This document shows positions 4,142 to 45,580 of a stretch of DNA of 51,925 nt, piece by piece. The stretch covers positions 1 to 51,925 of the forward strand of contig JAKCEX010000006.1 in NCBI GenBank assembly GCA_023539395.1, written 5' to 3'. Source of the stretch: Candidatus Geocrenenecus arthurdayi. GTDB lineage: Archaea > Thermoproteota > Nitrososphaeria_A > Caldarchaeales > Wolframiiraptoraceae. A program made the translations under genes and the position numbers. The stretch's first letter is position 1; each line of letters starts with the position of its first letter. Under the pieces are notes generated by a model that saw nothing but the letters and a program-made list of their open reading frames with translations, was not told the origin of the DNA and ran no database searches.

Positions 4142-4231
4142 GGGCCGGTAGCTCAGCTGGGAGAGCCTTCAAGCCCTAGGAGCGCTCCCTTGGCGTGGGA
4201 GAGGTCGCGGGTTCAAATCCCGCCCGGTCCA
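4142..4231 (+). tRNA. tRNA-Ala(GGC) with a 17-nt intron in the D arm
   Basis: Acceptor GGGCCGG (4142-4148) pairs with CCGGTCC (4224-4230), discriminator A at 4231. The D stem is at 4151-4154. The anticodon stem CTCCC/GGGAG (4185-4189, 4197-4201) closes loop TTGGCGT, so the anticodon is GGC. Seventeen extra bases separate the D arm from the anticodon stem. The best bulge-helix-bulge places the intron at 4164-4180. The helix TGGG:CCTA (one G-T pair) is flanked by three-base bulges AGA and GGA, with two-base-pair helices GC:GC on both sides. Removal restores a normal D arm. Confidence 0.93.
4164..4180 (+). other. Non-canonical tRNA intron (tRNA-Ala)
   Basis: Seventeen bases inserted within the 3' side of the D stem (around tRNA position 24). 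Boundaries are ambiguous over a few bases because of flanking repeats. The chosen cut sites are those that give a full bulge-helix-bulge. Confidence 0.75.
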
Positions 4232-4289
4232 CTATATTAAATCTACGAGTTCTGTTGACCATATTTAGTTTATTGGAGGTTGTAGTAGT

Positions 4290-42100: not shown

Positions 42101-42565
42101 GTGTCTTTGTCTGAGGTTTGGTTTTTTGCTTATGGTTGGGCTTTGGATAAGAGCTTGTTAAAGAAGGTTATTGGTGAGTGTGGTGAGCCTAGGAGGGCTA
42201 TCCTACGGGGTTATAGGCTTGTCTTTGATGTTTTTTCTCCAAGCTGGAGGGGTGGTGTAGCTAATATTGTAGAAGATGTTGATAGTGTAGTTTATGGTGC
42301 TGTCTATAAGATTGATTTGAATCAATTAGAGAGGTTGGATGAAGCTGTCGGTGTACCCCATATTTTCTCTAGACGTAAAGTAGTTGTAGAGGTTGAGGGC
42401 ATAGGGAAAGTTGAGTCAGTAACCTATATATCAACATCTGGGAGAGGAAGATGGGTTAAACCTTCAGAGCAGTATCTAAGCGCATTCCTACGTGGTTTAA
42501 AACAATTGAAGTATGAAGACGATGTCACTCAGAAGATTAAGAAGATAGCATTTGGAGAGAGATAG
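42101..42565 (+). CDS. Gamma-glutamylcyclotransferase-like protein without the catalytic Glu
   Basis: A 154-residue protein of the GGCT/AIG2 fold. WFFAYGWALDKSLLKK is the substrate-binding start, WRGGVANIVEDVDSVVYGAVYKI the core strands, and KPSEQYLSAFLRGL the later helix. In GGCT enzymes the catalytic Glu lies in LDxxEGV; here the same place reads LDEAVGV, with Val instead of Glu. So either the chemistry differs or it binds without catalysis. GTG at 42101 is the start given; a TTG two codons on is possible. It converges on the methyltransferase/ATP-grasp gene with a 28-base gap. Confidence 0.78.
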   Translation: MSLSEVWFFAYGWALDKSLLKKVIGECGEPRRAILRGYRLVFDVFSPSWRGGVANIVEDVDSVVYGAVYKIDLNQLERLDEAVGVPHIFSRRKVVVEVEGIGKVESVTYISTSGRGRWVKPSEQYLSAFLRGLKQLKYEDDVTQKIKKIAFGER

Positions 42566-42593: not shown

Positions 42594-44603
42594 TTAGAGC
42601 TTACTACTTTTCTCTCTTATGATTGGCTCAATCTTTTCTATCTGAGGTGGCTTAGTTATCTTTAACCTCTTCTCAGCTGCTTTCAATATAGCTCTAAGCA
42701 TTTCGGGGTAGCTCATTCCCATATATGCTGCTGCTTTAGCTAAGTGTCCATCCCAGCACCATCCAGGGTTAGGATTGACTTCTAGTAGTCTCGGGTTACC
42801 TTCGGAGTCTAGCCTCCAATCGAATCTTGCATAATCTCTACATTCAAGTCTATTGAATAGCTTTATACTACATTCAATAATGTAATCTTTAACTTCTTGT
42901 GGTATATTGGCGGGTATAGACTTTATGTTCCAGTATGGTGAATCTGGAATCCATTTCGCTTCATAGCTACATATTGGTGGAAGACCCTCGGGGAGTACGC
43001 TATAATCTTCTTCGGTTATCGGTAAAGCGATATAATCTTCTGGAGGGTTACCGATTATTCCAAGGGTTAAGTCTTTTCCCGTAAGGAATTCTTCGATTAA
43101 TATTGGTTTATTATAATTGAATCTCTCCTTAAGCTCTGAGATTGCATTCAGTAATTGTTCTTCATTGTATACAACGCTTCTACTCGTTATACCGAAGCTA
43201 CTATCTCCGAAGTTTGGTTTAACGATGACTGGGAAATCGAATGGTATCTGTACCTTTATATCGTCAGTCTTTAAGAATACTGCTCTAGGAACAGGTATAC
43301 CCATCTCTCTTGCAATACCTCTAACAAGGCTTTTATCAAAACAGTATGCAAGGCATTGTGGGCCTGCTCCAGTATAAGGTATACCGATGATATCTAGTAA
43401 CGCAGGTATATGTAATTCCTTCCTAGGGTCATTATAGAATCCCTCGTCACAAAGATTGAATACCAGGTCTATCTTGTTTTTAAGTTTTAGTAGGTCTTGC
43501 ACTAATGTATCATGATTCATTAAGTATATGAACTCGTATTCTCTCAATTCACTTAATGCTTGTATGAGCTTGTTTATCGTGTAGTAATCATCTTCATCAA
43601 ATACTCCTCCAGGTTTAGTGATGTCAGTCTTTGATGTATCTCCAAGTATTACTGCAACTCTCATCTTTAAGCCATTAATCTTCTTCTTTACAGGCGTCCA
43701 TTCTTTCTTTGCAGTAGCTGTAACGATAATCCTCTTCTCCATCATCCCTAGGTCTTGGTTTCTCTTAGAGTCAGGGGAAAGATCTCCATGGAAAACTATA
43801 TTTGTAAAGCCTGCTTTTTCTAGTAGCTGTTTTAGCATTTCTTTATTGTAGAGTCTTATAGCGTAGACTTGGTCTGCTATAACGCCTTTCCTAACATTTA
43901 CTATTACTTCTCTTGAGATTAATCTCTGCCCATCCGATGATAATGAGCGCTCCCTACATACAAACATTTGTTTATTAATCCATTCCCAAGACCTCTTCTG
44001 ATAATTCTCTTTAAGATAGCTTCCATCAGCTACATCTATTAGTATCTTACCCCATGGTCTTAAAACTCTTCTAACTTCTTTCAAGACTTGAAGGTCTTCT
44101 CTAATTGATTCAAAGTATCCAAAGCTGTTCCCCAATATCATGACTACATCGAAGGTATCAGCTTGGTATGGTAGTCTTCTTGCATCTCCCTCTCTAAACT
44201 TTACTTTTAACCCTTCCTTCTCTGCTTGGAGCCTCGCTCTCCTAATAAGATAATGGGAGATATCTAATCCTTCAACATTCTTAAAACCTCTTCTAGCTAA
44301 TTCTAGAGAGTGTCTTCCATGTCCACAGCATAGGTCTAGGATGCTATCTTCAGGTTTTAATCCAAGGATATGTGTGAATAAATCTACCTCTCTTCTAGTT
44401 ATCTCTTGATCATTTACAACGTCTCCATCAGTCTTGAGATACAATGAGTTAAAGATATGCTTCCACCAATCAGGTTGAACATATTCTTCAAGATCGGGTA
44501 TCGGTCCAAGGAACTTCCTTACTCGTTCACGGCTTCTAACTTCTCTCAATCTATTCTGCCGTCTCGTTAATTCATTATCTGAGGGGCTCTCCCCCATGCT
44601 CAC
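42594..44603 (-). CDS. Fusion of a SAM methyltransferase and a D-Ala-D-Ala ligase-like ATP-grasp enzyme
   Basis: A 669-residue protein with two enzymes. Residues 70-300 are a class I methyltransferase: motif I ILDLCCGHGRHSLELA (88-103), acidic EGLDIS (111-116), motif IV FDVVMILGNSFGYF. Residues 313-645 are a ligase of the D-Ala-D-Ala ligase/ATP-grasp class: VIVKPNFGDSSFGI (459-472), ARFDWRLD and LLEVNPNPGW with the Mg-binding Asp595, Glu608 and Asn610. Ligases of this type join two carboxyl/amino compounds with ATP. A Met at 314 begins the second half, suggesting fusion of two former genes. The product is unknown; archaea lack peptidoglycan D-Ala-D-Ala. The stretch upstream has no recognised partner. 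Confidence 0.85.
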   Translation of the reverse strand: MSMGESPSDNELTRRQNRLREVRSRERVRKFLGPIPDLEEYVQPDWWKHIFNSLYLKTDGDVVNDQEITRREVDLFTHILGLKPEDSILDLCCGHGRHSLELARRGFKNVEGLDISHYLIRRARLQAEKEGLKVKFREGDARRLPYQADTFDVVMILGNSFGYFESIREDLQVLKEVRRVLRPWGKILIDVADGSYLKENYQKRSWEWINKQMFVCRERSLSSDGQRLISREVIVNVRKGVIADQVYAIRLYNKEMLKQLLEKAGFTNIVFHGDLSPDSKRNQDLGMMEKRIIVTATAKKEWTPVKKKINGLKMRVAVILGDTSKTDITKPGGVFDEDDYYTINKLIQALSELREYEFIYLMNHDTLVQDLLKLKNKIDLVFNLCDEGFYNDPRKELHIPALLDIIGIPYTGAGPQCLAYCFDKSLVRGIAREMGIPVPRAVFLKTDDIKVQIPFDFPVIVKPNFGDSSFGITSRSVVYNEEQLLNAISELKERFNYNKPILIEEFLTGKDLTLGIIGNPPEDYIALPITEEDYSVLPEGLPPICSYEAKWIPDSPYWNIKSIPANIPQEVKDYIIECSIKLFNRLECRDYARFDWRLDSEGNPRLLEVNPNPGWCWDGHLAKAAAYMGMSYPEMLRAILKAAEKRLKITKPPQIEKIEPIIREKSSKL

Positions 44604-45487: not shown

Positions 45488-45580
45488 GGGCCCGTAGCTC
45501 AGCCAGGTAGAGAAAATACATCCACCTAGAGCGGCGGGCTCTTAACCCGTTGGTCGGGGGTTCGAATCCCCCCGGGCCCG
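45488..45580 (+). tRNA. tRNA-Lys(CUU) with a 19-nt intron in the D arm
   Basis: Acceptor GGGCCCG (45488-45494) pairs with CGGGCCC (45573-45579), discriminator G. The anticodon loop CTCTTAA gives CTT. The D stem is interrupted: TAGAG is repeated on both sides of the insert. AGGT (45505-45508) pairs with ACCT (45524-45527) and each side is followed by a three-base bulge AGA. Cutting AG/A on both sides removes 45511-45529 and restores the D stem GCTC/GAGC. Confidence 0.94.
45511..45529 (+). other. Non-canonical tRNA intron (tRNA-Lys)
   Basis: Nineteen bases in the 3' strand of the D stem. Core helix and both bulges are perfect; flanking helices are weak. Confidence 0.8.

Follow-up and report, generated by a model that had tools for sequence, protein, structure and literature searches.

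A methyltransferase fused to a Ddl-like ATP-grasp ligase in Candidatus Geocrenenecus arthurdayi, with a small methylated peptide-like compound as its probable product

The window analysed here is a stretch of 51,925 nucleotides from the archaeon Candidatus Geocrenenecus arthurdayi (GCA_023539395.1, contig JAKCEX010000006.1). An ORF scan of the window found a single open frame without internal stops at 42594..44603 on the minus strand, which begins with GTG and encodes 669 amino acids; an ATG at 44597, 6 bases downstream of the GTG and preceded by GGTGA, may serve as an alternative start. The gene is supported by this frame, by Pfam, by its orthologues and by dN/dS. Pfam placed Methyltransf_25 on residues 88-185 (E 3e-22) and Dala_Dala_lig_C on residues 433-640 (E 4e-29), both over the curated cut-offs. 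The protein consists of an NmbA-like, SAM-dependent methyltransferase half with a cap domain (residues ~30-300, 43704..44516; all coordinates within the gene refer to the minus strand), a linker (residues 301-313, 43665..43703, with a low-pLDDT block at 301-310) and a Ddl-like ATP-grasp ligase half (residues ~314-650, 42654..43664). An AlphaFold2 model built from 80 aligned orthologues of the fused protein had a pLDDT of 86.5 but a pTM of 0.60, so both halves are predicted to be well folded, but the relative placement of their active sites in the model is uncertain. The fused gene is the sole Ddl-type ligase of the 1.53-Mb host genome.

The fusion is neither a chance event nor an assembly join, because fused orthologues occur in relatives and dN/dS is low in both halves. 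Each of the four other genomes in the genus has a full-length fused orthologue (80-89% identity), and within the order Caldarchaeales the gene is present in 25 of 44 genomes, 23 times as a single ORF and twice in two pieces. In genome G019 the halves are adjacent separate genes (a methyltransferase frame of 299 aa and a ligase frame of 363 aa), and in G015 the protein is spread over two overlapping frames, possibly by a frameshift. These were the one true split and the one two-frame break among about 100 genes examined, so the homologues are not consistently split and assigned to a known pathway. Across 398 genomes of the phylum there was no further fused copy; the remaining matches were stand-alone ligases or methyltransferases. 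Compared with the four genus members, dN/dS was 0.027-0.060 in the methyltransferase half and 0.030-0.066 in the ligase half, which is strong and about equal purifying selection (~0.03-0.07). The divergence of the two halves is correlated (r 0.92 for the full set of rows, 0.65 once the divergent ones are removed). Thus, the fusion proposed in the sequence-only reading is real: one intact 669-aa ORF with both Pfam domains and with fused orthologues.

A scan of GTDB genomes gave at least 555 matching loci, of which the best 80 were retained for analysis. Among these 80, the same fusion recurs at 62-71% identity in many bacterial phyla (Atribacterota, Aerophobetes, Planctomycetota, Chloroflexota, Deltaproteobacteria, Actinomycetota, Spirochaetota, Zixibacteria and others) and in further archaea (Lokiarchaeota, Jordarchaeia, Methanophagales, Methanosarcinaceae and Altiarchaeota). 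At 78 of these 80 best loci it is a single ORF of 638-736 aa; at the remaining two, a longer antisense ORF had masked the fused frame during gene picking. Matches were found in 32 of 50 Atribacterota genomes (30 across nearly the whole protein), nearly full-length in 46 of 200 genomes of the class of Methanococcoides, one of which, with its fused gene at L138:8712-10823 and about 5.36 Mb along the replicon, we take to be Methanosarcina acetivorans C2A, and in 8 of 294 Planctomycetota genomes. Most bacterial carriers examined have an ordinary Ddl in addition. The search for the same domain pair, which the sequence-only reading had recommended, therefore showed the fusion to be widespread in bacteria as well as archaea, and the idea of an archaeal peculiarity, or of an archaeon-specific invention, was abandoned. 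Viral carriage was also rejected, as our search found no viral copy of the fused gene.

In a 60-row tree, Caldarchaeales f2/f4 formed one clade (support 100), a g4 clade contained the split G019 (support 99), and a large clade held the genus of the window together with its sister genus, intermingled with bacteria and other archaea (support 100). On this tree, 8 changes are required to explain the Bacteria/Archaea labels, of which the starred branches force 2. With the caveat that bins may contain foreign contigs, this suggests that the fused gene has been transferred between the domains, in a direction that the tree does not give. A contig of a 'Candidatus Nitrosotalea' MAG (L074) encodes a fused protein almost identical to that of a Methanophagales locus (L071), and is probably mis-binned.

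The gene has little company. A GGACT/AIG2-like cyclotransferase gene (42101..42565, plus strand) is convergent with it and adjoins it throughout the genus (5 of 5 genomes) but not outside it; this is probably merely local synteny. Outside the genus there was no conserved neighbour among the 80 best of at least 555 loci: no neighbour recurred within three genes at more than 5 of the 80, these 5 being all from Lokiarchaeota, and at 40 of the 80 no same-strand gene lay within 120 bp. Possible operon partners (threonine aldolase, aldo/keto reductase, CorA, a macro domain, archease, and 7TM_transglut with ATPgrasp_ST) were rejected as single cases that differ between loci. In Altiarchaeota and Methanosarcina, an ArsB/SLC13-like permease is encoded next to the fused gene (L079:5003-6244, L139:7267-8538, L140:10872-12143), and some Lokiarchaeota have more distant permeases near it. 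A link to arsenic through the ArsB-like permease, other permeases, ArsR or ArsC was rejected; it involved few loci and post hoc queries and was not significant. Elsewhere in the window, a tRNA gene at 45488-45580 (Rfam 62 bits) is unusually long, was missed by ARAGORN and probably bears an intron; a second tRNA, called by ARAGORN at 4142-4232 with an unreadable anticodon, perhaps has one as well.

With Foldseek, the top matches of the ligase half were all Ddl (best TMt 0.82). We compared the ligase half with Escherichia coli DdlB as the reference for E15, K97, Y216, S281 and the other positions, using residue numbers that we take from established knowledge. Everything that handles ATP and Mg is kept, as had been noted from the sequence: DdlB K97, K144, E180, K215, R255, D257, E270 and N272 correspond to K424, K462, E504, K550, R593, D595, E608 and N610, and the ATP/Mg motifs are invariant in the fused proteins. 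The two families also have in common the YEAK omega-loop motif and, at the second-substrate site, an Arg and a Gly. The equivalents of Arg255 and Asp257 lie in RFDWR (593-597, 42813..42827). However, identity to Ddl is only ~24%, a methyltransferase is fused to the ligase, and the pocket is altered. In place of the Glu15 loop there is an acidic FD(D/E)DD loop, here VFDEDD (334-339, 43587..43604), in which D336, D338 and D339 are invariant. In YEAKW (547-551, 42951..42965) the omega-loop Lys is retained and Ddl Tyr216 has become W551. The segment EVNPNPGWCWDGH (608-620, 42744..42782) holds the Mg ligands E608 and N610, together with G619 and H620 in place of Ddl S281 and L282. The replacements of E15, Y216, S281 and L282 are identical in all 80 fused proteins (best 80 of at least 555). 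In contrast, at locus L073, where a genuine ddl lies beside the fused gene, the true Ddl retains E15, Y216 and S281. The ligase half also scores below the NCBIfam Ddl cut-offs (137.8 vs 243 bits and 130.6 vs 245.65 bits). As the D-Ala pocket is replaced, the ligase half would not be a D-Ala-D-Ala ligase, in keeping with the earlier view that it is not a murein enzyme here.

By sequence, the nearest unfused ligases (38-46% identity) are pairs encoded beside lysine 2,3-aminomutase (KamA), one member of which sometimes bears a GNAT domain. In a ligase tree with Ddl as the outgroup, the fused ligases group apart from the KamA-linked ligases in a clade with 100/100 support. The KW omega-loop residue is common to both groups, as are NPNPG-like motifs and an acidic region at the first site, but the KamA-linked ligases are stand-alone or GNAT-fused and have no methyltransferase. 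The KamA system has two ATP-grasp ligases, one often with GNAT, whereas the host genome has one Ddl-type ligase, which is fused to the methyltransferase. There was no lysine 2,3-aminomutase gene in the host or in 43 other genomes of the order, and beta-lysine was rejected as a substrate by this analogy. KamA with two Ddl-like ATP-grasp ligases was seen at L151:7236-10781, L143:8615-11238 and L146:6975-10194 and likewise at L048 and L049 (about 9.1-12.5 kb); in L143 and L151 one of the ligases is fused to GNAT. These genes form an apparent small-peptide operon, probably an acetylated beta-lysine peptide pathway of methanogens, Planctomycetes and Thermoproteota; a literature search found no paper on a KamA-ATP-grasp operon. 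Two further settings of related ligases came up. A Bradyrhizobium plasmid (L023:4282-9047) encodes lysine 2,3-aminomutase, a gamma-glutamyltransferase, a 7TM_transglut protein and a Ddl-like ATP-grasp, to which an ATP-grasp gene of pNGR234a (L022) is related. At L050:8669-10885 an M20 peptidase is fused to a Ddl-like ATP-grasp (738 aa), and comparable frames (720-745 aa) that match the ligase in the same way are found repeatedly in that family, which is probably the Nitrosopumilaceae.

The methyltransferase half is a class I SAM-methyltransferase. SAM motif I is LDLCCGHGR (89-97, 44313..44339), with D90, C93, G94, G96 and R97 invariant in the 80 fused proteins, and the NSFGYF motif (159-164, 44112..44129) is invariant in 80 of 80. 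W46, W47, Y55, R217, R219, R231, E232, Y247, R250 and Y252 are invariant in the same proteins, and the arginines among them suggest a carboxylate-bearing substrate. A match to the MADS defence protein mad2 (PADLOC) was rejected because it is a generic match to the methyltransferase core (model positions 252-415 of 492), not one of whole length with partner genes. Among the further top fold and profile matches are CypM, CcbJ and glycine/sarcosine N-methyltransferases. C-methyltransferases (SeMT, PsmD and SgMT) and others that we regard as O-methyltransferases also appear among the fold neighbours, which makes nitrogen no more than the most probable acceptor. Among solved proteins the closest relative is NmbA (PDB 9RI2), which matched at 115 bits over the whole domain including the cap; the next solved match reached 85 bits over the core only. 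NmbA shares the class I SAM fold and can be aligned through the cap domain, including an R-(I/L)-Y stretch, but it has ~24% identity, stands alone and lacks the extra invariant W46, W47, R217, R231 and E232 of the fused family. NmbA N-methylates the Cys amino group of bacillithiol (PMC12719100). The fold comparison with NmbA gave a TM of 0.66, a value to be read in light of the report that AlphaFold mispredicts the NmbA cap (PMC12719100).

Based on these results, we propose a self-contained bifunctional enzyme that couples two small amino compounds through an amide bond and N-methylates an amino group, a reading to which we give about an even chance (roughly 50%). In the C-terminal ATP-grasp half, one amino acid-like substrate would have its carboxylate activated to an acyl phosphate, which would then react with the amine of a second substrate to give a dipeptide or pseudo-dipeptide other than D-Ala-D-Ala. 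The N-terminal half would use SAM to methylate, at least once, either a substrate or the dipeptide, with an amino nitrogen as the likeliest target. What results would be a small N-methylated peptide-like metabolite. Its precursors would be common metabolites, because the fused gene is solitary and has no dedicated partner genes. The reading is supported by the retention of the ATP/Mg residues while the substrate-site residues are replaced. N-methylation is favoured by the kinship with NmbA and the N-methyltransferases named above, and a small-peptide product by the kinship with the KamA-linked ligases. That the halves are linked is supported by equal selection, correlated divergence and the adjacency of the split genes in G019. 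The methylated dipeptide or modified amino acid suggested earlier would still be the most natural product. Animals make anserine with carnosine synthase and carnosine N-methyltransferase, by the same logic of an ATP-grasp ligase and a SAM methyltransferase that yield a methylated dipeptide; as those enzymes are separate and unrelated proteins, only the logic is comparable. The fusion is a new combination within known enzyme families, not a new type of machine.

The fusion shows functional linkage, not that one molecule is modified twice, and Ddl-like ATP-grasps can modify larger cofactors too. The ligase might act like MptN, CofF and PylC and attach an amino acid to some larger cofactor or tail, with the methyltransferase modifying that cofactor. 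ATP-grasp ligases often complete cofactors, and a solitary gene strongly conserved across domains is what a cofactor-tailoring gene might look like. We nevertheless consider this unlikely, as the ligase groups with Ddl-type free amino acid ligases by Foldseek, several methyltransferase relatives act on small amino compounds, and the distribution is patchy across lineages with differing cofactors. Less likely still is a methyltransferase that protects a carboxylate as an O-methyl ester. Separate methyltransferase and ATP-grasp genes reportedly cooperate in this way in beta-lactone peptide pathways. Both enzyme classes occur in a paper on such pathways (PMC11427300), and the cap arginines R217, R219, R231 and R250 fit a carboxylate; however, NmbA methylates nitrogen, and a companion esterase and other pathway genes were not found at the loci. 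Just as improbable is a mere fusion or co-translation of reactions from two different pathways. No partner genes link the halves, but both domains of life have maintained the fusion, its halves have diverged in parallel, and they stay adjacent when split. A D-Ala-D-Ala or D-Ala-D-Lac ligase, finally, is hardly credible: the best Pfam and NCBIfam matches are Ddl families, but the scores fall short, the pocket is replaced in 80 of 80, a separate Ddl is encoded by most of the bacterial carriers that we checked, and the archaeal host lacks murein.

The ATP-grasp amidoligases described by Iyer and colleagues in 2009 are probably relevant here. Our literature search found no described pathway and no paper on a methyltransferase/ATP-grasp fusion, and the accessible portion of an archaeal fusion survey (PMC11237513) does not mention this one.

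Returning to the proposed amide-forming N-methylating enzyme, its intactness and strong conservation in many anaerobic bacteria and archaea point to a small methylated peptide-like compound as its probable product. Tentatively, this one polypeptide may be a complete, horizontally spread pathway to an undescribed N-methylated dipeptide-like metabolite of anaerobic bacteria and archaea, including Methanosarcina. By analogy with NmbA, a particular form of it would be a low-molecular-weight thiol, an N-methyl-cysteinyl amide. An identity of about 60-70% across two domains, with all catalytic residues fixed, almost certainly reflects a useful product. The present family labels (D-Ala-D-Ala ligase and generic methyltransferase) are misleading for the fused protein, and 'Ddl' annotations in archaea should not be taken as cell-wall genes. 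As a Methanosarcina carrier is a tractable archaeon, the product should be findable there.
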